Of a DNA stretch of 64,000 bases, positions 7,754 to 45,452 are shown piece by piece (position 1 is the stretch's first letter; every line of letters begins with the position of its first letter). The notes beneath the pieces were generated by a model. The model did no database searches. It was not told the origin of the DNA and was given only the letters and a program-made list of their open reading frames with translations. Both the position numbers and the translations under genes were made by a program. Origin of the DNA: Sphingobacteriales bacterium. GTDB lineage: Bacteria > Bacteroidota > Bacteroidia > Chitinophagales > Chitinophagaceae. Location of the stretch: positions 1-64,000 of the forward strand of contig JACQDV010000039.1 in NCBI GenBank assembly GCA_016200915.1, written 5' to 3'.

Positions 7754-8188
7754 ATGAATAAAATTTGGGGATTAATTGTTTTAGCAGGTTTAGCATCCTG
7801 TAACGGTGCAGAAACTAATAAACAACAGGAAGACGCCCTTTCAAAAATGAATGTTGATAATTTGCCCAAAACCTCCGTACTGGTTTTAGATACGGCTATC
7901 AATTTTGGTTCAGTAAAAGAAGGCGAAAAAGTAAATAGTGAATTCAGGTTTGTAAATATTGGCAAAAACCCTTTGATTGTACAATTTGCGAGAGCTTCCT
8001 GCGGTTGTACTGTTGCAGAAAAACCTAAGCTTCCGGTTATGCCTGGTGATACTGGTATGATCAAAACAACTTTTAACAGTGAACACCGTGCCGGCGAAAC
8101 TGTTTTTAAAACTATTTGGGTTACGTCTAATGCAGATAGTACATTTAAGCCTTTAATATTACGTGGTAAAGTAGAAAAAACAAATTAA
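7754..8188 (+). CDS. DUF1573-domain lipoprotein
   Basis: A 144-residue exported lipoprotein with signal MNKIWGLIVLAGLASC (lipobox LASC, lipid Cys 16). The DUF1573 Ig-like domain follows: FGSVKEGEKVNSEFRF, then NPLIVQFARASCGCTVAE with the conserved CGCT, and MPGDTGMIKTTFNS. The function of the family is unknown. It sits 42 bp after nusB and 14 bp before yajC in a conserved arrangement, so a link to envelope biogenesis is plausible but unproven. Confidence 0.88.
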   Translation: MNKIWGLIVLAGLASCNGAETNKQQEDALSKMNVDNLPKTSVLVLDTAINFGSVKEGEKVNSEFRFVNIGKNPLIVQFARASCGCTVAEKPKLPVMPGDTGMIKTTFNSEHRAGETVFKTIWVTSNADSTFKPLILRGKVEKTN

Positions 8189-8202
8189 TAAAACAGTATA
8201 AC

Positions 8203-8547
8203 ATGAATGTATTAAACAGTCTTTTATTATTGGGTGGCGATCCTGCATCAGGTGGTGGATCTTTTCAATTGATTTTCCTTGGATTGATGATAGTGGTTTT
8301 CTGGTTGTTCATGATCCGTCCGCAATCTAAAAAAGCAAAAGATGCCAAGAAGTTCCAGGAGAATATGCAGAAGGGTGATAAAGTAGTGACCATTGCTGGC
8401 ATACACGGTACCGTAAATAAAGTAAATGATGATAACACCATCATGCTGGAAGTAAGTCCTGGTAGTTATATGAAGATAGAACGCAGTGCTATCAGTATTG
8501 AATGGACACAGCAATTAAACAAAGCTGCTACTACTGCTACTAAGTAA
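8203..8547 (+). CDS. yajC: Preprotein translocase accessory subunit YajC
   Basis: A small inner-membrane protein that joins SecDF at the SecYEG channel. It has 114 residues with one N-terminal transmembrane helix (about 22-38, FQLIFLGLMIVVFWLFMIRPQ). The family signature RPQSKKAKDAKKFQENMQKGDKV follows, then a beta-rich cytosolic domain. It is the last gene of the nusB cluster and is followed by a terminator. Confidence 0.95.
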   Translation: MNVLNSLLLLGGDPASGGGSFQLIFLGLMIVVFWLFMIRPQSKKAKDAKKFQENMQKGDKVVTIAGIHGTVNKVNDDNTIMLEVSPGSYMKIERSAISIEWTQQLNKAATTATK

Positions 8548-8551
8548 TTCA

Positions 8552-8572
8552 GTGGTGAGCTGCGAGTAACGA
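8552..8572. repeat. Heptamer tandem repeat, three degenerate units
   Basis: Three 7-bp units (GTGGTGA, GCTGCGA, GTAACGA) lie between the yajC stop and its terminator. Confidence 0.5.
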
Positions 8573-8581
8573 GAAAATATT

Positions 8582-8611
8582 ATCCCGGAGTGATGGCTTC
8601 GGGATTTTTTT
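8582..8611 (+). terminator. Intrinsic terminator of the nusB-yajC cluster
   Basis: A 9-bp stem with one mismatch (8582-8590 with 8597-8605) is followed by a run of T residues. Confidence 0.8.
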
Positions 8612-8622
8612 ATTTCCATTCC

Positions 8623-8746
8623 AAAAAATAACAAAATGAGAAATTAATAATTTGAAAGCAAATCACAACATAAAGAAAGGAGTCTTTCATGACTTGTTTG
8701 TTGTTAAAGAACTAAGCTACTTAATAATTTGAAAGCAAATCACAAC
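8623..8746 (-). CRISPR. Orphan two-repeat CRISPR relic with type II-C repeat geometry
   Basis: A full 47-bp repeat lies at 8700-8746. On the minus strand it starts GTTGTGATTTGCTTTCAAAT and ends TTTAACAAC, so the ends are inverted (GTTGT / ACAAC). A second copy ends at 8669. Its last 26 bp (8644-8669) are identical to 8721-8746, while the other half has decayed. The distance between the copies (8670-8699) is exactly 30 bp. A 47-bp repeat, 30-bp spacer and this GTTGTGATTTGCTTTCAA start match Bacteroidota type II-C arrays as I remember them. On the minus strand the decayed copy would be the terminal, leader-distal repeat. No cas gene lies nearby. Confidence 0.75.
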
Positions 8747-8993
8747 GAAAGGTTTAAAAAAATTATCTTTACAAATACAAAAAAACTATCCCGCCTTCAG
8801 CTATGCTACCACCAAATCTAAAAAAAATCACAAAAAAGAGGATTCATCTCACTTTAAATTTATCATTACCCAACTGGATGATGAAAGAGAGGTTGTTTTA
8901 TTAAGAGAAAATATTAACCGGCAAGCTTATCTTAAAGCACTCAGCAGTTACATCCATTTAAAGAGATTGTTTCGCCGCAAAAAAACAAAATAA
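8733..8993 (+). pseudogene. Unrecognised open frame without a usual start codon, possible gene remnant
   Basis: The frame is open from 8733, inside the CRISPR repeat, to a TAA at 8991-8993. It has no ATG, GTG or TTG start. The last 60 codons look protein-like: a charged helix around HFKFIITQLDDEREVVLL, then a basic tail ending LFRRKKTK. I do not recognise the family. It could be the 3' end of a decayed gene, perhaps connected with the CRISPR relic, or chance coding-like sequence. No other gene is apparent in 8548-9008. Confidence 0.3.
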
Positions 8994-9008
8994 TACTGTT
9001 TTTATTAC

Positions 9009-9641
9009 TTATATCCGTTCTGTCACCACTTCCACCTCATACAAGGCATTAAACAAATAAACAGTGCCGGTTCTTAGTTCAATACATTTATAACGTTTAC
9101 GCAATTTCTCCATCCGTTTAAACACTCTTCCGTCTTTGGTGCGGAATAAATTTCCATCCATCAGTTCTTCCACCAGCTTTACACCATTCTTCCGTTCGGT
9201 TACATCATATTTGCGCAGCACCCTTGTCAAATGTTCTTCGCCACAGGTGGTGGCTGCAGGGTTTTGTAATGATTTAAGCAAAGCCTTTTCTATATCGGCA
9301 GGAAATAATTTATGCAATAAGAATTGTGCCAGCAGTTTGCTGTATTCATTCTTCCATTCTTTACCATGTGCGGCTGCCAGGTAACCATAATTATCAAACG
9401 TGAGCAGGTGAGCCAACTCATGCAGTAACGTAACTAAAAATGCATAGGGGTTTAAATTACCATTTACACTAATGCGGTGATTTTTTCCATCCACTGCATT
9501 ACGGTAATCGCCTAATAATGTTTCCCGCTGACGGGTAATGGTGAGATGAACTTTGTACTGAACCAGGTATTGTACTACAGGTTGGTAGGCACCCGGGGGT
9601 AAAAATTGCTGTAAAGCATTAAGAGGAGTTTCTTTCTTCAC
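9009..9641 (-). CDS. SprT-like zinc metalloprotease-domain protein
   Basis: A putative zinc peptidase of the SprT/Spartan-like family, cytoplasmic, target unknown. HELAH, followed by a second His in HGKEW, forms the HExxH-type zinc site about residues 75-100. The C-terminal part carries the basic segment KRYKCIELRTG, resembling the zinc-ribbon position of SprT proteins but without Cys pairs. A GTG at 9641 (VKKETPLNALQ) is chosen over the ATG at 9683 because family proteins begin with this helix. Even so it overlaps the upstream gene by 23 bp. The four genes upstream run in the same direction. Confidence 0.75.
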   Translation of the reverse strand: MKKETPLNALQQFLPPGAYQPVVQYLVQYKVHLTITRQRETLLGDYRNAVDGKNHRISVNGNLNPYAFLVTLLHELAHLLTFDNYGYLAAAHGKEWKNEYSKLLAQFLLHKLFPADIEKALLKSLQNPAATTCGEEHLTRVLRKYDVTERKNGVKLVEELMDGNLFRTKDGRVFKRMEKLRKRYKCIELRTGTVYLFNALYEVEVVTERI

Positions 9642-35546: not shown

Positions 35547-36047
35547 CTATTCTTTTGCATTTCCCAGTTCTTTTACCAGCTCAACTTCACCATCTTCTAT
35601 TCTTATAAACAATAATTTTTCTTCATTCTCCATATTTATTACCCAAATTACTCTTTCGTTTTCTTCAACCATAAGTGCCAGTTTAATACTAAAGCCTTTA
35701 AATTGATTTTTCAACCGGGTGCTGATAGTAACGGGTACTTCATGTTCTTCAAAATAAGAGATATGATATATCTGCTGACCATTTTTGTTATACAATACTT
35801 TCTGGGCAATATCATTCATTACAAACTTAATGAGGTAATCTTTATCAACTTTATACCAGGTTACATTGGTTGCACCCCTGAACTCATCCTGGAAAGTATT
35901 CCATACTCTTTCATTCATTTTTACAATAGTAGAAGTAACTTTTACATCAGGCAGGTTTTTACTGTCGGTTTGCTGTGCCATTAATAAGTTTGTTATACAT
36001 GCGAACAAAGTAATTGCAGTAATGCGGAAGATAATTTGCTTTTTCAT
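35547..36047 (-). CDS. Exported PepSY-like (BLIP-like) protein
   Basis: 166 residues with a signal peptide ending LMAQQ. Two short alpha-beta modules, WNTFQDEFRGATNVTWYKVDKDYLIKFVMND and the NGQQIYHISYFEE region, fit the PepSY-like, beta-lactamase-inhibitor-like fold found in many Bacteroidota periplasmic proteins. Such proteins often accompany two-component genes, and a histidine kinase cluster lies 3 kb away. Its upstream region shares an 11-bp motif with that of the kinase operon. Function unknown. Confidence 0.7.
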   Translation of the reverse strand: MKKQIIFRITAITLFACITNLLMAQQTDSKNLPDVKVTSTIVKMNERVWNTFQDEFRGATNVTWYKVDKDYLIKFVMNDIAQKVLYNKNGQQIYHISYFEEHEVPVTISTRLKNQFKGFSIKLALMVEENERVIWVINMENEEKLLFIRIEDGEVELVKELGNAKE

Positions 36048-36444
36048 GATTGTAGTTTTTAGTGGTTAATTTTTGATTGACAACCCAAAACTACTTTACA
36101 GAAACGCCGTTAATTTTCTTATTCGACCACAGTATGCATTCATAATATATTTAACCTGTAAATAAAACTTTTCATCTTCTGTCATATAAAAAGCTCATCA
36201 ATCATCTGCCGGTTTCATTCGTCGCCCATTACCGGTAAATTACTACGGTCACAAAAAAAACCTGCACAAAGTTTTAAGCTTTATGACCCCCCGGTCAACT
36301 GCTCTTATAAGCAACTTTATGCAGACTTTTTTATAAACGGTTTTGAAGGAAAATAAACTACACTACTCTTTTAAAAACTTTATAGAGTTTAAAATATTCT
36401 CTCCTGCTTTTCCTGCAGCCAATTCATTTTCACAAAAAATATCA
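36048..36444. other. 397-bp non-coding gap
   Basis: The upstream region of the PepSY-like gene and the downstream region of the next minus-strand gene. It is AT-rich with no convincing reading frame or hairpin. It holds the motif CATTCGTCGCC at 36216-36226, which recurs upstream of the histidine kinase operon. Confidence 0.6.
36216..36226. promoter_or_regulatory. Candidate shared operator, copy 1
   Basis: CATTCGTCGCC is identical to 38918-38928 in the region before the kinase operon. It lies about 170 bp upstream of the PepSY-like gene. Its identity as a LytTR site is conjecture. Confidence 0.25.
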
Positions 36445-37242
36445 TTACCTCCAAACAAAATCACTAAGCGTTACATAGTGCCGGTTTTTGTCATCTTCAT
36501 ATATATTATACTTTGTAGGATAGTACCCATGTTGGGCAAAGTATTGCGGCTGTGCATAAGGCAGCGATACCGATACGCCACTTGCCAGCGTTGTTCTTGT
36601 CACGATTGGAGAAACAAAAGTAAAGCTGCCATTATAGGAACCCAGTATCAGCGTGTGATTTATAGTAGAACCCGATGTAAAATTATTGGGCGCCCAGTGT
36701 ACTCCCAATTGTGGTATAGCAGCATCGGCAATATAATTAGCGGGCATAAATCCTGCAGGTGGCAGCAACAAAATTGATGGCGCCGGAGGAGCCGGAATAG
36801 CAAGTCTGTCTTCAAGACTCATCATAAAAAAACGAATATCGAAATGAGAGGGAATGAATGCACCACCGGGCAGCGGGTGACCATTAGCACTCCAACCCAT
36901 TGCAAGATGCTTAAAAGGAGTTGACTCCAATGCTTTGGGATGAAAATCCAAAACATAAGGAGCATTGGTAGTTGGCAAACCAGACAATGCTTCGTCCGTA
37001 AATACAATTCCTAATTCCTTTGGTACTCCTGTATGGCTCTGTGTTACAAAAGTGTGGGCATAACCGTTTCCCACTATAATCTCATCGCCATTGAACGTGT
37101 TGTACTTTGATTTCTGGACAGCAGATGAACTGGCAATGGAGGTTTCAAAAGTTTCATTTTTTAGATTTTGTTCTTTTTGACAGGAGGATAATAATACTAT
37201 GGCAGTTGCTGCCATTAGTAATTTGTTTTTTACTTGTTTCAT
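36445..37242 (-). CDS. Lipoprotein, possibly with a TTHB210-like (DUF5602) domain
   Basis: 265 residues with a lipoprotein signal (lipobox LSSC, Cys about 21). The region FNGDEIIVGNGYAHTFVTQSHTGVPKELGIVFTDEALSGLP and the later HLAMGWSANGHPLPGGAFIPSHFDIRFFMMSLEDR, with several His, resemble the TTHB210-like domain as I remember it. The conserved His could bind a metal. Function unknown. The domain call is tentative. Confidence 0.65.
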   Translation of the reverse strand: MKQVKNKLLMAATAIVLLSSCQKEQNLKNETFETSIASSSAVQKSKYNTFNGDEIIVGNGYAHTFVTQSHTGVPKELGIVFTDEALSGLPTTNAPYVLDFHPKALESTPFKHLAMGWSANGHPLPGGAFIPSHFDIRFFMMSLEDRLAIPAPPAPSILLLPPAGFMPANYIADAAIPQLGVHWAPNNFTSGSTINHTLILGSYNGSFTFVSPIVTRTTLASGVSVSLPYAQPQYFAQHGYYPTKYNIYEDDKNRHYVTLSDFVWR

Positions 37243-37297: not shown

Positions 37298-38770
37298 TTA
37301 TTTGATACGTCTGACCCTGTAATTGATTGAAAATGGAAAAGAATCAGTTGTAGCTACGGGAAAGTTTTTAACCCAGCCAGATGCACTACCATTAATATAT
37401 TGCCCCACCCCGCCATATTGTGTAACTTCTGTGTTAAGATTATCCTGAACATAAGTGTTATAAGAAGTGGTGTTATTTATTATTGTATAAAGACTGAAAG
37501 TGTAATTGCCGGGTGAAGTATTAGCAGACCATATAACACCCTGAACATAAGGTAAACTATCTGTTCTGCCACCAATAATACTTGTTGTAGTATCTCCATG
37601 TGAACCAGAAGTGGAAGCGTAATACCATGAGTAATTAACTCCATTCAGCGTAAGGTTAATGTATTGAGTTGAATCACCGCAATTACCGGCGGTAACATTT
37701 ATATTTGGCAAAATAGTGTCTGCACCAAACGGGCCAATATTTTTTGAATACACAATAACACCACAGGTATCAAGCACCTGCATTTTCAAAACTTCATTAA
37801 CTGGTACCAGGCCACTTATAGTTCCAGAACTATTGGTAAAATCACTTTTACTGGTTGAATCAGACCTTGTGATAGTAACCTTTCTATTTGCAAACGGGGT
37901 TCTGTTGATGGAATCAATAAATGTAGCAGTAAGATTTACACTGCCTGCAAGGTCACCTGCATTCCAAAAAGTAAAATGTTTAACAGTGCCAACATAATTA
38001 TTGCCTTGTTTTGTTGCAGTGCCTTCCCGTTTCCATGCACCATTAGTGTTATCAAAATACCAAAGAGGTATGGATGATGGTGCTTTATTTTGTAATGCTG
38101 AAGAAATGGGAATGGTAATAGCAGCGGTGTTCCCACTGGCCAATTGCAGTTTGTTTCCCGAAGCATCATTCATTTCAACTGCAATAACTCCGAAGGATTG
38201 AAGAGCTCCCGATTGATTAGTATTACCGGCACTCTTTAAATTGCCAGGTGCACTTGTGCTGAAAGCCTGGTCAGTAGGATTTAAGTAGTGAACCGAAACA
38301 GAAACATTTCCGGAATATGCATTGCCATTAGATGCTGTGATAAATCCTGCACCAAAATTAACTGCACTGCCGCCTGTAATAGAAACATTACCCCCGGAAG
38401 AGGCTGTAAATGTTCCCGAAACAGATTTTGGTATTAGCTGAATGCTTGCATTACTAACAGCATTGTTACTTGCTCCAAATTTTTTTGTGCCATCAAAGAA
38501 TCCATCTTTAGTTGCTGTCACCACTACGGAATCTAAATTGAACTGCACCTTCGTAAGAGAAAATTTGCCATTGGCATCTGTTGTTGCAGTAGCCGTTCCA
38601 CCTTTAACGGTTGCATTGCTCACAGGATTATTATTAAGGTCTGTAACCACACCCGTAACACTACTCTGAGGAGTGACATCTTGAATGTGATCCTTTTTTT
38701 TGCAGGCTGATAAAATAATTATCGTTGCGATAATTAAAGTAATGCTGGTTATTTTACTGCCGGGTTTCAT
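37298..38770 (-). CDS. Lipoprotein with carboxypeptidase-regulatory-like domain
   Basis: 490 residues. Lipobox LSAC (about 20-23) and a charged KKKDH tail after it. An N-terminal carboxypeptidase-regulatory-like beta-sandwich (SSVTGVVTDLNNNPVSNATVKGGTATATTDANGKFSL, about 37-110) is followed by a domain with GNAYSGNVSVSVHYLNPTDQ and PLWYFDNTNGAWKREGTATKQ, a pattern seen in large surface lipoproteins. No enzyme motif. It probably sits on the cell surface and binds or scaffolds. Confidence 0.8.
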   Translation of the reverse strand: MKPGSKITSITLIIATIIILSACKKKDHIQDVTPQSSVTGVVTDLNNNPVSNATVKGGTATATTDANGKFSLTKVQFNLDSVVVTATKDGFFDGTKKFGASNNAVSNASIQLIPKSVSGTFTASSGGNVSITGGSAVNFGAGFITASNGNAYSGNVSVSVHYLNPTDQAFSTSAPGNLKSAGNTNQSGALQSFGVIAVEMNDASGNKLQLASGNTAAITIPISSALQNKAPSSIPLWYFDNTNGAWKREGTATKQGNNYVGTVKHFTFWNAGDLAGSVNLTATFIDSINRTPFANRKVTITRSDSTSKSDFTNSSGTISGLVPVNEVLKMQVLDTCGVIVYSKNIGPFGADTILPNINVTAGNCGDSTQYINLTLNGVNYSWYYASTSGSHGDTTTSIIGGRTDSLPYVQGVIWSANTSPGNYTFSLYTIINNTTSYNTYVQDNLNTEVTQYGGVGQYINGSASGWVKNFPVATTDSFPFSINYRVRRIK

Positions 38771-38917
38771 TTTTATAAAGTTTAGCGGTTAGAAAATGAT
38801 TCTTCAGTTAAGTTAATTTCCTTTTTAGCTGTAAGAATTGAATAGAGACCGAAGAGGCATTAACAAAAATATTTAGCACAGAAAGGAGGTAATTAAGCAG
38901 CAATTGTCGCTATTTGC

Positions 38918-38928
38918 CATTCGTCGCC
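38918..38928. promoter_or_regulatory. Candidate shared operator, copy 2
   Basis: CATTCGTCGCC lies about 75 bp upstream of the first kinase gene. A related AATTGTCGC lies at 38902-38910, 17 bp earlier, suggesting a degenerate direct repeat. Confidence 0.3.
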
Positions 38929-39001
38929 GAAGAAATGCAACAGGCTAAAATTTTATTTCGGCCTCAATATGTTACCTAACTTTAAGCAAGAAGCCAACTG
39001 C

Positions 39002-40147
39002 ATGACTACCCAGGAGCTTATATTTTCAAACAACAAGGTTCACCGCATCAGCAGGCACATAATTTTATGGTTGGTATTTTGTGTACACTTTATTATTCAA
39101 AACCTCATTGTAGGCTCTACCAATGAAGCACTGAAAACAAGAACATTTGCTGAGGCCGCTTTCAATCTTATTCATTTTCTTCCTGTATATATAATATCAG
39201 TGTACGTTTTTATTTTATGGATAATACCAGGGTTTTTATATCGCAGCAAACTCTCTGTATTTATGATGTTAACTGCATCCCTGCTGATAATTGATTTTGT
39301 GCTTTGTTACACTGCCGGTTTATTATATGTTCATTCGCAAACCGGCATTCCGGTACAGCAAATAACCTTAAGTATGAATAAATACAATGCTGTGGTAAAT
39401 AGTATTTTTCTGCCACTTACTTTATTGGGTATTACCGGCGGTATTAAAGCAATGAAAACTTGGTATCTGAAACAACGAGAAAATGAACAGTTGGCCGCTA
39501 AAAAAATTTGGGCTGAATTACAATTGCTCAAGATTCAAATTAATCCCCGCTTTCTTTTTCATGCACTGGCTACTATAAAAGCAAACATCAGGGAAGGTTC
39601 GGTCAACTCTCCTTTATTAATCTTAAAGATATCGGATATGCTGAGTTATGTATTGTATGAAAGTGAAAAGGAAAGAGTATTGCTTAGCAAGGAAACAGAT
39701 ATTATAAAAGACTACCTGGCACTGGAAGAAAAAAGTACTGCACAAAGAGTAAAAAGTAATTTGATTACCGACAATAGCCTGGCTGATGTTCACATTCCTC
39801 CACTTATTTTTTTATCACTTTGTGAAGTGGTAATTGAATACCTGCTTGCCACAAATGACTACAAGCTTTATGCTGATATTCTATTTAAAAGGAAAACGGA
39901 TCATCAATTACTTTTTCAATTAACCATTATGCCGGAAGAAAACAATTTTACTGTCAGCCATCTCCCCAATGAAATATTAGCAGCTACCCGTATGCAGTTA
40001 CAAAATCATTATGCCGGTACGCATAATATCGAAATTTTTACTCATCCTGATAAAGTTACCATTACCATAAATCTTTTCCTTGCTGATTTGCCAGCAAAAA
40101 ATGTAAACACAAACAGTATATCACTAAAAATATATGAAGCTGTATGA
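39002..40147 (+). CDS. LytS-type membrane pseudo-histidine kinase A
   Basis: 381 residues starting MTTQELIFSN, which aligns with the starts of the three other kinases here. Four N-terminal membrane helices (about 20-40, 55-75, 85-110, 130-148) lead into a coiled-coil linker and a His_kinase-type core. The family motif HPHFLFN reads NPRFLFH, so the phospho-acceptor His is Arg183. The N-box ENxFKHG (replaced by SLCEVVIEYL) and the glycine-rich GIGLxNVKKRL are both missing. It should neither phosphorylate nor bind ATP. It overlaps the active kinase gene by 14 bp, so a heteromeric partner role is inferred. Confidence 0.85.
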   Translation: MTTQELIFSNNKVHRISRHIILWLVFCVHFIIQNLIVGSTNEALKTRTFAEAAFNLIHFLPVYIISVYVFILWIIPGFLYRSKLSVFMMLTASLLIIDFVLCYTAGLLYVHSQTGIPVQQITLSMNKYNAVVNSIFLPLTLLGITGGIKAMKTWYLKQRENEQLAAKKIWAELQLLKIQINPRFLFHALATIKANIREGSVNSPLLILKISDMLSYVLYESEKERVLLSKETDIIKDYLALEEKSTAQRVKSNLITDNSLADVHIPPLIFLSLCEVVIEYLLATNDYKLYADILFKRKTDHQLLFQLTIMPEENNFTVSHLPNEILAATRMQLQNHYAGTHNIEIFTHPDKVTITINLFLADLPAKNVNTNSISLKIYEAV

Positions 40148-41267
40148 TTTAATTTTTGCCAGTGATCGGGTTAACCGGTTCAAACGCCATTTCATCTTCT
40201 GGCTGGCTGTTTATATTTACCATTGGGTAAGAATTAGCTTTTTATTTCCACAAACATTAACTACAGGTACAATTCTTACTATCAGTTCAAATGCACTAAT
40301 ATGGGGGGTGTTGACAAACATGTTGATTTCCTATTCAATCATTTATTACCTCGTACCCCGATTTTTTTATACTAAGAAATATGGTTGGTTTGTTCTGGGG
40401 CTTGTGCTGCTACTGGCAGTCACTATCCTATTTAGCATTGCAAATGCTTTTATAAGTCCCGGTATGAAAACAGCCATCGGATTTACCAAAGAACATCCTT
40501 TCCTTTTTATGCGGGGTACTCTTATCCGCATTTTTGGCAACCCACCCTTAATATGTGCTATGTTATTATCGCTAAAAACTTTTAAAAGATGGCACCTCAA
40601 ACAAAAAGAAAATGAAATGCTGGTTAGAGAAAATGCTAATGCTGAACTGCAATTACTCAAAGCACAGGTACACCCGCACTTCCTGTTTAATACACTTAAT
40701 AATATCTACTCTTTCACTCTGAGTAAATCGGCACAGGCAGAAGAATTAGTGGAAAAATTATCGGATATGCTCAGGTATATGATCACTGATTGCAACGTGG
40801 AGCTTGTTCCGCTGGAGAAAGAAATAAAAATGCTGGGAGATTATATTGGCCTGGAAAAAGTAAGATATGGAGACAGGTTGGATCTGTGGGTTGATATAAA
40901 TAACACTAAGAATAATTTATTAATTGCGCCACTTGTCATGATCCCTTTTGTTGAAAACTCATTTAAGCATGGTACCAGTATGATGCGGGGTAAACAATGG
41001 ATTCAGTTGAGTATAAAAACTGAAGACAATGTTCTTGATTTTACATTAATAAACAGTAAACCACCTGCGCCTGTGCAAAATAAAAATAAAACAGGCATAG
41101 GGCTGATGAATGTGAAAAAAAGGCTGGCATTGCTTTACCCGGGAAAACATGAACTGACGGTAACTTCTAACGAAAGTATTTTTAGTGTACGGCTAACATT
41201 ACAATTACAATTTGCTAATGAAGCTGTTTTAACCAATTTTATTAATCATCAATTTATTTACTCATAA
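40134..41267 (+). CDS. LytS-type sensor histidine kinase A
   Basis: 377 residues with four membrane helices, a linker helix and a complete His_kinase/HATPase core. The phospho-acceptor is His182 in AQVHPHFLFNTLNN. The N-box is VENSFKHG (Asn275) and the glycine box is TGIGLMNVKKRL (about 320-331). There is no extracytoplasmic domain, so sensing is probably within the membrane or through a partner. It starts 14 bp inside the end of the preceding pseudokinase gene, which points to coupled translation. The likely phospho-target is the LytTR regulator at the end of the cluster. Confidence 0.93.
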   Translation: MKLYDLIFASDRVNRFKRHFIFWLAVYIYHWVRISFLFPQTLTTGTILTISSNALIWGVLTNMLISYSIIYYLVPRFFYTKKYGWFVLGLVLLLAVTILFSIANAFISPGMKTAIGFTKEHPFLFMRGTLIRIFGNPPLICAMLLSLKTFKRWHLKQKENEMLVRENANAELQLLKAQVHPHFLFNTLNNIYSFTLSKSAQAEELVEKLSDMLRYMITDCNVELVPLEKEIKMLGDYIGLEKVRYGDRLDLWVDINNTKNNLLIAPLVMIPFVENSFKHGTSMMRGKQWIQLSIKTEDNVLDFTLINSKPPAPVQNKNKTGIGLMNVKKRLALLYPGKHELTVTSNESIFSVRLTLQLQFANEAVLTNFINHQFIYS

Positions 41268-41298
41268 ACCAACTACATTAATCATTAAACGCAACACA

Positions 41299-42375
41299 AT
41301 GAAAAAGATTATTATCAGCCTTTTATTGATCACAGTCAATCATCTCTGTTATGCACAGGGTTGTGTGGCTATAAGAAGCATTAATGGCTTTGGCCAGTAC
41401 CTGCACGGCACCAATGCTTTTTCAAGTGATAACTGGCAAATCAACATTAACCAGCGTTACTTCAAGGCATTTCGTGATTTTAAGGGAACTACCGATCAAA
41501 AAACCCCTTCACAAAATGAATCCGTAACAAAAAGTTATACGATGGAGATTTTGCTCACCCGTATTTTCAATAAAGGCTGGTCGGTTGCCTTATCATTACC
41601 CTACCTTGTAAACAGCAGGGAAACAAATGGCGAGCATGGTGGCCCTAACACAACAAAACACACTACCCATTCTTCCGGTATTGGTGATATTAGAATTACT
41701 GCTTACAAATGGTTGATTACTCCAAGAGTTAATCAAAATTTTAATATTGAAGCAGGTCTCGGTATTAAATTACCTACTGGTGATTATAAATACCAGGATA
41801 ATTTTTACAGGAATGATACGACCTATGTATCCGCACCGGTTAATCCTGCTATACAATTAGGTGATGGCGGTTCCGGAATTGTTGCAGAGCTAAATACGTT
41901 TTACTTTCTAACTAAAAGCATCAGCCTCTATGGAAATTTCTATTACCTGAGTAATCCACGGGAGCAAAACGGCAGTTCAACTTTGTTTGGCAGAACTGCT
42001 ACCTCACTTCAGTTAAAAACATACAATACAGTTGCCAGCGTTACGGATCAGTATGCAATAAGAATAGGTGCAAATGCGGTAGCCGGTGATTGGGTATTTT
42101 CAGGTGGATTAAGAGAAGAAGGGATACCGGTGAAAGATCTGATTGGGGGTAGCAACGGAACGAGAAGAGCTGGTTACAACATTTCAGTGGAACCCGGAAT
42201 TACATACCGAACAAAAAAAGTGGATATATACGCATACGTTCCTGTAGTGATAAAAAGAAAAATAAAACAAAATATACCCGACCAGTTAGCAACGCAAATC
42301 ACAGGCACTTATACGCATAGTCCAGGCGGCTCAGGTAATTATCTTTTATTCGCAGGAATTGCTTTCAGATTATAA
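41299..42375 (+). CDS. Outer-membrane beta-barrel protein between the kinase pairs
   Basis: 358 residues with a signal peptide ending CYAQG. Alternating amphipathic strands run from about residue 40 to the end, and the last residues FAGIAFRL form a typical closing strand for BAM-dependent insertion. It resembles MetA-type transporter-like outer-membrane proteins. Residues 100-115 (GGPNTTKHTTHSSGIG) are a His-rich loop. It lies between the two kinase pairs on the same strand (31 bp after the first, 60 bp before the second), so it may be a sensor accessory or the pathway's target. Its function is unknown. Confidence 0.75.
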   Translation: MKKIIISLLLITVNHLCYAQGCVAIRSINGFGQYLHGTNAFSSDNWQININQRYFKAFRDFKGTTDQKTPSQNESVTKSYTMEILLTRIFNKGWSVALSLPYLVNSRETNGEHGGPNTTKHTTHSSGIGDIRITAYKWLITPRVNQNFNIEAGLGIKLPTGDYKYQDNFYRNDTTYVSAPVNPAIQLGDGGSGIVAELNTFYFLTKSISLYGNFYYLSNPREQNGSSTLFGRTATSLQLKTYNTVASVTDQYAIRIGANAVAGDWVFSGGLREEGIPVKDLIGGSNGTRRAGYNISVEPGITYRTKKVDIYAYVPVVIKRKIKQNIPDQLATQITGTYTHSPGGSGNYLLFAGIAFRL

Positions 42376-42435
42376 GAGATTGTATAAATTTAATATAGTT
42401 ATCTCAAAGAGTTTCTTAATGACGTCGTTTCAGTA

Positions 42436-43575
42436 ATGACCAAACAGGAGTTCATATTCAGCAACCAGCCGGTACACCGGGTTAGCAGGCATTTAACCAT
42501 GTGGCTGTGTATAGCTTGCTACATAGTACTGATCAACTTCTTTTTTAGAACACCGGAAGAATTTTTTTCAGCTAAAATGAGGATACAGGCAGTACAAAAG
42601 ATGATTTATCTTCCTGTAAGTATCTTGTCTGTTTATTTTTCGATATATTTTTTACTACCCCGGTTCCTGTTGAAAGGGAAATATCTTGCCTTTGCAGTTT
42701 TAATGATTTTCCTGCTGTTATTAAATATTATTCATGCCTGGTTGCTTACAAGACTGCTCGCTATACTTACTCAACCTTTGCCCTTTGAACAATTGCCCGT
42801 TCAATACAGGATATACCAGCCAGTTACAAACGGATTGGGAATAAGCTTTGCCACCAGTGGCCTGGCTACTATTATTAAACTTTTTAAAATAGATTATCTA
42901 AAACAAAAAGAAAATGAAAATCTAAAGCGCAAAAAAGCCACGACCGAGTTGCAACGCATAAAGGCTAATTTTCATCCGGCTTTTCTGTCTGATGCACTTA
43001 AAAAAATTTCCTTCCTCCTCCGTACAGGTTCACCGGAGTCTCCTGTTGTTATTTTAAGTCTGTCTGATTTGCTGAGTTATAGTTTATACGATAATGATAA
43101 GGAGTATGTGTCATTACCCCAGGAAATACAAATGATAAAAGAATACACCTCACTCGAAATGAAAATGATGACCGGAAAACTGGATATAACAGTAGATGAC
43201 AATACCCAGAAATTTACGCATCTCAAAATCCCACCGCTGCTCTTATTATCTGTGGTGCAAAATATTTATGAGCATGTGCAGGGGAAACAACAGGAGGCTT
43301 TGGAATTAAAAATAAAAATCGCCTGCGAGCAAAATATGCTACTCTTTCAGCTGAACTTTAAAGGAATTTTTTATACGAAAGAAAACAATGAAAGCCTGCC
43401 AGGCATTTTAAAAAATTCCCTTCACCGTATTCAATTATTATATCCAGATAAATATCGTCTGGACAGTTACCTCGAAAATAATTTTCTCAGCCTGTTGCTG
43501 TCAATAGAAACCGATGAACAACCTATTCATACACATCAATTAAACAAAACCGAACCTTTTTATGCGTCTGCATGA
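42436..43575 (+). CDS. LytS-type membrane pseudo-histidine kinase B
   Basis: 379 residues with the same N-terminal signature (FIFSNQPVHRVSRHL) and four membrane helices. The phospho-acceptor motif reads HPAFLSDAL, so His is replaced by Ala182. The N-box is degraded (VVQNIYEHVQG keeps an Asn and a His but not the KHG), and the glycine box is absent. It is predicted inactive. Its 14-bp overlap with the next gene repeats the arrangement of the first pair, which supports duplication of a pseudokinase-kinase unit. Confidence 0.85.
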   Translation: MTKQEFIFSNQPVHRVSRHLTMWLCIACYIVLINFFFRTPEEFFSAKMRIQAVQKMIYLPVSILSVYFSIYFLLPRFLLKGKYLAFAVLMIFLLLLNIIHAWLLTRLLAILTQPLPFEQLPVQYRIYQPVTNGLGISFATSGLATIIKLFKIDYLKQKENENLKRKKATTELQRIKANFHPAFLSDALKKISFLLRTGSPESPVVILSLSDLLSYSLYDNDKEYVSLPQEIQMIKEYTSLEMKMMTGKLDITVDDNTQKFTHLKIPPLLLLSVVQNIYEHVQGKQQEALELKIKIACEQNMLLFQLNFKGIFYTKENNESLPGILKNSLHRIQLLYPDKYRLDSYLENNFLSLLLSIETDEQPIHTHQLNKTEPFYASA

Positions 43576-44731
43576 TTTTATATTTTCCGGCAAAAAAAAT
43601 TATCGTATCAGCAGACATATTGCCTTCTGGATTGCGTGGTATGTTATTGCCATGACTATTCAGTTGAACTTTCCCGGCTTTCAGTTAAAAAGTATGATTG
43701 CATACAATGCAGTTCGTTCTACTAACAGGCTTCTCCCTATTTTATTTTTTTGTTACACGTCCGTATATTTTATTATTCCAAGATTCATTGCTCTCAATAA
43801 ATTCAGGGATTTCTTTATCGCTATGTTTTTACTCATCATCGTCTCCTATTTTTTTACTTTCGCATCCCTGTATTTTATGATGAATATTGTTCAGTCAGAA
43901 AACTGGGCAGCACATACAAGTACACGCATAAATACGCCAAACTTTACTCTTTTTATCTTTAGCTACTATTCCAATATTAATTTTAGCGGGGCATTGCCCA
44001 CCACTTGCGCCATGTTATCCATAAAATATTATAAGGACTGGTATAAAAAACAACGGGAAACAGAACTGCTGATACAGGAAAATACACAAGCTGAACTTCA
44101 GTTATTAAAAGCACAGGTACATCCGCATTTTCTTTTTAATACACTCAATAATATTTATGCCTTTTCATTGAAAGAACCTATGGTAGCTGCAGGTTTGGTT
44201 GATAAATTAACCGGAATGATTGATTACATGCGTACTGAAGGTGAAAAATCATTGGTAACTCTTGAAAAAGAAATTAAGCTGATCAAAGATTATATTGGCC
44301 TGGAAAAAGTTCGCTATGGCAACCGGCTGGAAATGAAAATTCAAATTACAGGTGACTTTAAAAATAAACTGGTAGCCCCTTTATTAATGATACCTTTTGT
44401 AGAAAATGCCTTTAAACATGGAGCCGGAAAAATCAGGGGAAACCAATGGATAGATCTTTTAATTGAAACAAAAAATAATCAGCTTATTTTTAACCTTAGT
44501 AACAGCAAAGAGTTAATAGAAACATCACCCTCTGCAAAACACGGGATTGGTTTATCGAATGTAAAAAAGAGACTGGGATTGCTTTACCCCGGGAATCATA
44601 CACTTGAAATCACCTCCACTGAGGATACTTATTCTGTAAAGATGCAGGTACTGCTTTATGAGAACTCAACCATTGAAAACACACAGGATAAAATAAATTA
44701 TTCAGCCATTCAAAACATTTCATATGCCTGA
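43562..44731 (+). CDS. LytS-type sensor histidine kinase B
   Basis: 389 residues, four membrane helices and a complete catalytic core: His189 in AQVHPHFLFNTLNN, N-box VENAFKHG and glycine box HGIGLSNVKKRL. Close in sequence to kinase A (LEKEIKLIKDYIGLEKVRYGNRLEM is nearly shared). It overlaps the response regulator gene by 8 bp (ATGCCTGA), so this kinase is the clearest cognate of the regulator. Confidence 0.94.
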   Translation: MRLHDFIFSGKKNYRISRHIAFWIAWYVIAMTIQLNFPGFQLKSMIAYNAVRSTNRLLPILFFCYTSVYFIIPRFIALNKFRDFFIAMFLLIIVSYFFTFASLYFMMNIVQSENWAAHTSTRINTPNFTLFIFSYYSNINFSGALPTTCAMLSIKYYKDWYKKQRETELLIQENTQAELQLLKAQVHPHFLFNTLNNIYAFSLKEPMVAAGLVDKLTGMIDYMRTEGEKSLVTLEKEIKLIKDYIGLEKVRYGNRLEMKIQITGDFKNKLVAPLLMIPFVENAFKHGAGKIRGNQWIDLLIETKNNQLIFNLSNSKELIETSPSAKHGIGLSNVKKRLGLLYPGNHTLEITSTEDTYSVKMQVLLYENSTIENTQDKINYSAIQNISYA

Positions 44732-45452
44732 TAAAAAAATTATTTGTTTAGCAGTGGATGATGAACCGCCTGCACTGGAGGTATTAAAAAAATATATCAA
44801 CTCCGTTCAGCACCTGGAATTAGCCGGTACATGTGCGGATGCTATCGAGGCATTAACCTTTTTACAAAATCATGCAGTTGATTTGTTGTTCCTGGATATA
44901 CAAATGCCGCAATTGCTCGGCACAGATTTAATAAGAACATTAAAGAAACCACCTAAAGTAATTTTCACCACTGCCTTCAGAAAATTTGCCGTGGAAGGTT
45001 TTGAACTGGATGCGGTGGATTATTTATTAAAACCGATTTCATTTGAAAGGTTTCTGAAAGCAGTTAATAAGGTAATGGATACATCGCTGCAGGTAAGTGA
45101 AAATAATTTCAATGGCAATAACAAAACAAATAACCTTACAGATGCTTTCATTAGTCTGAGGGCCGATCGCAAAAATTTAAAAGTATCATTGAATGATATT
45201 CTTTATATCGAAAGTTTGAAAGATTATATAAAAGTGATCACTGTAAATAAAACCATTATCACCAAACAATCCATTTCTTCTATTGAAGAAATGCTGCCAA
45301 AAGAAAATTTTATCCGCATTCACCGCTCTTATATCGTTGCATTAAATAAAATTGAATCTTATACCAACGAATTAATTGGTATCGCCAAAACAGAACTGCC
45401 CATCAGCCGCATGTATAAACTGGAAGTAAGTAAAGTATTAAAGATTGAGTGA
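44724..45452 (+). CDS. LytTR family response regulator
   Basis: 242 residues. The receiver domain (about 1-125) has the acidic pair D12-D13, phospho-acceptor Asp58 in LFLDIQMP, TTA at about 82-84 and Lys103 in DYLLKP. The C-terminal LytTR DNA-binding domain (about 140-242) has FISLRADRKNLKVSLNDILYIESLKDYIKV and FIRIHRSYIVALNKIE. It is the only regulator in the cluster and should take phosphate from one or both active kinases. LytTR proteins bind direct repeats upstream of targets, often including their own operon. Confidence 0.95.
   Translation: MPDKKIICLAVDDEPPALEVLKKYINSVQHLELAGTCADAIEALTFLQNHAVDLLFLDIQMPQLLGTDLIRTLKKPPKVIFTTAFRKFAVEGFELDAVDYLLKPISFERFLKAVNKVMDTSLQVSENNFNGNNKTNNLTDAFISLRADRKNLKVSLNDILYIESLKDYIKVITVNKTIITKQSISSIEEMLPKENFIRIHRSYIVALNKIESYTNELIGIAKTELPISRMYKLEVSKVLKIE

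Follow-up and report, generated by a model that had tools for sequence, protein, structure and literature searches.

Systems of the LytS/LytTR type usually combine one sensor kinase with one regulator, although this ratio is not strictly defining. In the stretch of DNA analysed here (the window: 64,000 nucleotides of a Sphingobacteriales bacterium, contig JACQDV010000039.1, positions 1 to 64,000), the ratio is abandoned at positions 39002-45452, where four genes of the kinase family stand beside a single LytTR regulator and two of the four encode pseudokinases devoid of the phospho-accepting histidine (phospho-His). The locus raises the question of what these inactive proteins do next to active kinases, and whether two inputs meet at one regulator. 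The best explanation of the data presented below, to which a probability of roughly 0.57 is assigned, is that inactive and active LytS proteins form heteromeric receptors and that two such receptors converge on one regulator.

The source genome (4.5 Mb in 96 contigs) belongs to the Chitinophagaceae, the family of Ginsengibacter hankyongi and Niastella vici. Six intact open reading frames (ORFs) follow one another on the plus strand in the order pseudokinase, kinase, barrel protein, pseudokinase, kinase and response regulator, a layout that had been described correctly in an earlier interpretation of the DNA letters (the sequence-only reading). Pseudokinase A (39002-40147; its ORF opens at 38969, and the start at 39002 is consistent with the family N-terminus) has R183 at the phospho-His position of its dimerisation and histidine phosphotransfer (DHp) part and has lost both ATP boxes (CEVVIEY at the N-box and PNEILAA at the G-box position). 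Kinase A (40134-41267) shows H182, the N box VENSFKH and the G box TGIGLMN. In pseudokinase B (42436-43575) phospho-His is replaced by A182 and the G box is gone; its N box, VQNIYEH, retains Asn and His, with Glu changed to Gln. Kinase B (43562-44731) possesses H189, and the regulator (44724-45452) consists of the Pfam domains Response_reg and LytTR. The intervening gene (41299-42375) is predicted from weak Pfam hits and a structure model (mean predicted local distance difference test score, pLDDT, of 70) to encode an outer-membrane beta-barrel resembling FapF and COG4313 channels. Gaps occur at only two junctions (31 and 60 nt, the latter the maximum) and all remaining junctions overlap, so that a single operon is likely.

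As in LytS/LytTR systems, kinases A and B are PF06580 proteins that retain phospho-His as well as both boxes (N and G), and a regulator with receiver and LytTR DNA-binding domains is encoded within their operon. Pfam His_kinase scores amounted to 95.7 and 82.6 bits for kinases A and B and to 55.5 and 44.3 bits for pseudokinases A and B, the latter two being the lowest of 15 matches in the genome. The residues named in the sequence-only reading (R183, A182, H182 and H189) were all correct on re-reading, the active members do keep their catalytic residues as it had said, and both inactive members lack phospho-His; the further claim of lost ATP boxes is true of pseudokinase A, whereas pseudokinase B is less degraded than had been stated, since its N-box Asn and His remain. 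For pseudokinase A, the sole kinase-family member modelled (mean pLDDT 90.3), four long helices are predicted in the membrane region; behind them come the DHp helices, and then a domain of alternating strands and helices like that of GHKL kinases. The best fold match was the kinase domain of GanS (6swk), with DivL and RetS among the other matches; pseudokinase A combines a predicted kinase-like fold with lost catalytic residues, as expected of a histidine pseudokinase. A four-helix topology had been attributed to all four proteins, and the model bears this out for pseudokinase A, the protein that it covers.

Related genomes were surveyed for similar pairs. One family survey comprised 147 genomes with pseudokinase B as query and looked for tandem kinase-family neighbours, a second comprised 394 genomes with a pseudokinase profile as query, and the best few candidates per genome were considered in each; the tandem loci of both were fetched, together with some single-kinase loci for comparison. 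A scan of named genomes for a pseudokinase motif was read for the best 80 of 113 relatives, and a class-wide survey covered 395 genomes, from which three tandem hits outside the family were followed. Among at least 48 non-redundant entries with adjacent kinases, 42 were pseudo-active pairs, three were both-active, and three were not true pairs (the window's own adjacency of kinase A and pseudokinase B, a fragment at L075, and L135 with two separate systems). As the searches were seeded with pseudokinases, both-active pairs are under-counted and these numbers give no estimate of their frequency. Forty of the 42 were analysed, leaving aside L153 and L129, in which the live kinase is split between frames from 7111 onward; the assembly of L052 likewise shows a split live kinase (8145-9231). 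L153 (5923-8095), from outside the family, holds an active-inactive LytS pair, and this pair groups apart from the other pairs in the tree, which suggests a separate origin.

The 40 pairs comprise 29 with the pseudokinase gene first, as in the window (class I), and 11 with the kinase gene first (class II: L036, L039, L054, L057-L059, L061, L085, L094, L101 and L103). Pairs from the two family surveys were spread over at least 13 of 101 genus codes, and two further loci of the class-wide survey, L102/L151 and L107/L152, hold pairs of the same kind outside the family. No second case of the double-pair layout was found among the 40 systems; the analysis covered two further genomes of the window's genus, and in G173, the one of them with a pair, the contig stops inside kinase A. 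The genes of pseudokinase and kinase overlap by 14 nt at both junctions in the window and, according to ORF calls, overlap in 33 of the 40 pairs (exactly 14 nt in 16, 4 nt in 6), which suggests that their translation is coupled, an arrangement favourable to joint assembly.

Loss of the catalytic residues is confined largely to one member of each pair. Phospho-His is absent from 37 of 40 pseudokinases, in which R, D, E, G, A, T, N or P takes its place, and is present in all 40 partner kinases; the N-box Asn was found in all 39 partners covering that position. Mean identity among class I pseudokinases and among their partners was 0.29 versus 0.26 in the membrane part, 0.40 versus 0.65 in DHp and 0.19 versus 0.47 in the catalytic and ATP-binding (CA) part, and the respective values for class II were 0.42 versus 0.42, 0.58 versus 0.68 and 0.39 versus 0.51. 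The stretch FLFNTLNNIY, near invariant in kinases, is lost from class I pseudokinases, and LSDLLSYxLY in the second DHp helix is common to 13 aligned members of this class, every specified residue of LSYxLY being invariant. The ratio of non-synonymous to synonymous change (dN/dS) in three pairs of related genomes was 0.075, 0.111 and 0.086 for pseudokinases and 0.099, 0.087 and 0.068 for partner kinases, a fourth comparison giving no computable value; these figures are rough, because synonymous change is near saturation (dS of 1.1-3.3 in ten of 14 comparisons, not computable in four). The pseudokinases are under purifying selection, and their membrane and dimerisation regions are kept. As called, six of them fall short of 340 aa (L032, L035, L055, L065, L075 and L085), for which a contig end, the choice of start or a split frame is responsible.

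A tree of 66 proteins unites the 24 active partners in a single clade (support 98/85). Its pseudokinases separate by class, with 16 rows in the class I group and 7 in the class II group (100/100 for both), and the partner kinases divide along the same line. Window pair A clusters with L056 (same genus), L033 and L051, and window pair B with L053, in the pseudokinase and the kinase half alike. Judged from this tree, pairs A and B come from two different old subclades, and their designation as duplicated in the sequence-only reading is misleading: placement as sisters, expected of recent tandem duplicates, was rejected for pseudokinases (p 1.6e-5) as well as for kinases (p 7e-9). A single origin of all pseudokinases is compatible with the two groups of the 66-row tree (approximately unbiased test, p 0.19), and in a quick tree of 107 rows they stand on one branch with support 91, long branches being present, so that a single old origin is favoured, without proof. 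The nearest neighbour was common to pseudokinase and kinase in 22 of 37 systems of the quick tree. In the tree of 66 proteins the both-active members of L038, L062 and L063 group together, and these duplicates possibly show the starting state.

Co-divergence was analysed in 37 systems, L056, L091 and L095 being excluded with the regulator out of reach. Distances of pseudokinase and kinase correlate with r 0.81 (permutation p 0.0002; largest of 5000 permutations 0.20), those of pseudokinase and regulator with 0.51 and those of kinase and regulator with 0.58, values to be read in view of genes that travel together, small samples and a single regulator row shared by both window pairs. Given the regulator, pseudokinase and kinase still correlate with 0.74; given the kinase, pseudokinase and regulator correlate with 0.07. 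Pseudokinase and kinase trees have 14 of 34 splits in common, compared with 0.26 by chance. In the 26 class I systems the pseudokinase-regulator value given the kinase was -0.08; the pseudokinase followed the membrane part of its kinase with 0.61 (0.59 given the regulator) and the CA part with 0.27 (0.13), and the DHp, CA and membrane parts of the kinase followed the regulator with 0.59, 0.62 and 0.17. Such a pattern would be expected of a receptor whose dead and live subunits meet in the membrane and whose live subunit faces the regulator.

Because of purifying selection, kept regions and co-divergence with the kinase, the pseudokinases give the impression of conserved subunits of a receptor and not of copies in decay. 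The role as membrane partners that the sequence-only reading had proposed for them is supported at the level of the membrane by conservation and co-divergence, and from this we infer that the pairs form heteromers. As regards convergence, the 21 regulator rows of pair-type systems group in one clade (96/98) that excludes the regulators of single-kinase and both-active systems, and the counterparts of pair A and pair B in relatives are each accompanied by a regulator of their own. Elsewhere in the genome 28 other matches to the regulator were listed, the best with 48% identity, and three of the four best, placed in the tree, fall outside the pair-type group (88/97) on long branches. Since these homologues lie outside that clade, two inputs to one regulator would be the simplest reading.

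Each gene pair would accordingly encode one membrane receptor of two subunits, in which the dead subunit would use its four-helix membrane region and DHp helices to pair with the live kinase and would sense or gate, and the live kinase would form the phosphate bond and pass phosphate to the LytTR regulator. Receptors A and B, of different old subclades and encoded in one operon, would converge on this regulator, which probably binds an operator at 38909-38939, would control its own operon and may control divergent genes. The direction of effect, the signal, the regulon and the attribution of the element to the regulator are steps that we infer. A wider proposal is more tentative, its chances falling just short of even, namely that the pairs are obligate two-subunit LytS receptors of Chitinophagaceae and neighbours, in which a duplicated kinase became the dead subunit, retained membrane and DHp parts as the half that senses or gates, and co-evolved with the live one, and that the window's pair of receptors, of different subclades but with operon and regulator in common, is a built-in signal integrator.

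Several observations weigh against heteromeric receptors of this kind. Three of 40 pseudokinases retain phospho-His, namely L053 and L073, the closest relatives of pseudokinase B, and L032, all with a degenerate ATP-binding part; as L053 and L073 keep the residue, its loss in pseudokinase B is a trait of its own lineage. Nine of 29 pseudokinases in class I and seven of 11 in class II keep the N-box Asn, the assemblies show three of the 40 broken up between frames (L065, L075 and L085), and tandem LytS pairs with both members active do exist (L038, L062 and L063). Relatives with active or decayed counterparts had been named in the sequence-only reading as evidence that would count against it; the reading withstood this check for the most part, as conserved inactive forms with partner-like dN/dS were found, alongside these three retained histidines and three split genes. 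Genes of one operon also co-diverge anyway, with nine of 34 splits in common between pseudokinase and regulator and 11 of 34 between kinase and regulator. In the 11 class II systems the correlation of the pseudokinase with the regulator (0.84) is higher than that with the kinase (0.67), and the DHp and CA parts of the pseudokinase track the regulator with 0.78 and 0.56, or 0.80 and 0.60 given the kinase; the membrane parts of pseudokinase and kinase correlate with 0.83. As a general rule, that pseudokinases do not follow the regulator was rejected: it is true of all 37 systems together and of class I, but fails in class II, whose pseudokinases, with DHp and CA parts tracking the regulator, may also touch it.

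That the pseudokinase acts on the regulator, by reading, holding or dephosphorylating it, is improbable for the window, whose pairs are of class I with a pseudokinase-regulator value of -0.08 given the kinase and without the FLFNTLNNIY stretch in the pseudokinase, even though the class II values (0.80 and 0.60) point that way, the DivL core is among the fold matches of the pseudokinase A model and DivL itself, described as a dead kinase core turned sensor of phosphorylated DivK, provides a precedent (PMC4211667). Somewhat better placed, if still unlikely, is an inhibitory role: were autophosphorylation in trans to need two live subunits, heterodimers would be silent and a signal would free live homodimers. 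This shares anatomy and conservation with the heteromeric receptor, it suits a class I pseudokinase without a working CA domain to serve its partner, and nothing specific was counted against it.

Pair A might also be a bystander that no longer uses the regulator, pair B alone feeding it, given that the pair A relatives L033 and L051 each come with a regulator of their own and pair A in the window does not. With kinase A intact, six closely spaced genes on one strand and the three next most similar regulators outside the pair-type clade, this is slightly less probable again than direct action on the regulator. Functionless decay of duplicated genes is largely contradicted and very improbable; a variable residue at the phospho-His site, a poorly conserved class I CA domain and split frames in three of 40 would agree with it, but 37 of 40 are unsplit, dN/dS is near 0.1, membrane and DHp parts are conserved, the LSDLLSYxLY motif persists and the pseudokinases form one old group in the 107-row tree. 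Tested through dN/dS, with dS near saturation, decay was rejected. Heteromeric receptors converging on one regulator are hence retained as the preferred explanation.

The operator of this explanation was sought upstream of the pair operons. A scan for direct repeats in the upstream regions gave little, and reading them side by side revealed a shared element, roughly TTATCGNCGACRAAYKGCATTYGTC, often in inverted arrangement. A LytTR-like element of at least 15 bits was present upstream of 29 of 37 pair operons (20 of 22 used in motif building, nine of 15 held out) and at three of 53 single or both-active loci; the top score in 440 shuffled control regions was 15.1. Loci with the element include the window (38909-38939), L033, L035, L073 and L060, and L057 has a second operator-like site at 2838. 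In the window the candidate operator lies on the minus strand at 38909-38933 (core 38915-38930) and is overlapped by a second copy on the opposite strand at 38924-38939 with two mismatches. A perfect match to the 16-base core occurs exactly once in the 4.5 Mb genome, at the window operon, and with two mismatches allowed 12 hits compared with 58 for the reversed control. Its half-site GGCATTYGTC is similar to the YpdB site GGCATTTCAT as reported in PMC4847170, and the element at 38909-38939 is probably the binding site of the regulator. A weak candidate on the minus strand at 36213-36228, upstream of a small secreted-protein gene, has three mismatches and, taken alone, is no more frequent than chance; it carries the 11-mer CATTCGTCGCC of the main site, of which the genome has four copies (reversed control 11); one copy lies at the operator and a second before the small secreted-protein gene.

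Three neighbouring genes lie on the minus strand. The divergent gene at 37298-38770 encodes a secreted protein with a carboxypeptidase-regulatory-like domain and is by its position a possible target; a TTHB210-like protein (36445-37242) has homologues near the pair loci L056 and L073. The small protein at 35547-36047 has no Pfam hit itself and belongs to a cluster, with weak PepSY_like hits in two members, found near nine of 39 pair loci and none of 31 single-kinase loci. A barrel gene occurs near 13 of 39 pair loci versus none of 31, and a PAP2/vanadium-haloperoxidase-like protein near 15 of 39 versus two of 31. The latter was seen at L031, L033, L039, L052-L054, L057, L058, L065, L082, L085, L095 and L101-L103, with three copies at L057. 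The names of neighbour proteins rest on weak Pfam hits, the kinases, the barrel and the neighbours received no helpful name from NCBIfam, and the enrichment is only suggestive because contigs vary in length and some of the single-kinase controls are from more distant taxa.

Bacterial histidine kinases are usually viewed as homodimers, and well-studied couples of a dead and a live kinase are few. Dead-plus-live pairs recurring in relatives suggest an undescribed type of two-part bacterial receptor, and about forty natural operon-encoded pairs, some with the one gene order and some with the other, together with a few both-active pairs as a comparison set, constitute material for testing the role of the pseudokinase by genetics and structure. 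The window adds a possible case of two receptors acting on the same regulator. Searches of open-licence literature gave no description of a conserved family in which dead and live LytS kinases are paired within an operon, or of two such pairs on one regulator.

Known separately are LytS/LytTR systems, dead kinases of the DivL type that steer live ones, and kinase heterodimers (RetS-GacS; ChrS-HrrS). The DivL-CckA couple of Caulobacter is neither of the LytS family nor an operon-encoded pair. It resembles the window pairs in that a pseudo-histidine kinase steers a live kinase (PMC9491836, PMC12189002), and differs from what is proposed for them in that DivL binds phosphorylated DivK (PMC4211667). 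Control of a single output by a kinase-kinase heterodimer is described for RetS-GacS of Pseudomonas, where RetS acts on GacS in several ways, including phosphate removal (PMC12189002); these are hybrid kinases, however, and not a dead-live operon pair. In Corynebacterium glutamicum truncated ChrS boosts signalling via the paralogous live HrrS, and the native proteins heterodimerise, but this pseudokinase is a frameshift from laboratory evolution, for which heterodimers of the truncated form were not seen in the assay reported (PMC9491836). LytTR Regulatory Systems (LRS) of Streptococcus are described as a membrane protein with a LytTR regulator that is autoregulated via upstream repeats (PMC6193735); they have no kinase, the membrane inhibitor acting on the regulator, whereas the inner-membrane proteins of the window are of the kinase family. 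The LytS/LytTR systems BtsS/BtsR and YpdA/YpdB of E. coli and LytSR of S. aureus likewise consist of a PF06580 sensor and a LytTR regulator, BtsS having seven membrane helices (PMC10653868) compared with four in the model of pseudokinase A. Unlike in these systems, each kinase of the window is accompanied by a dead partner and two pairs share one regulator.

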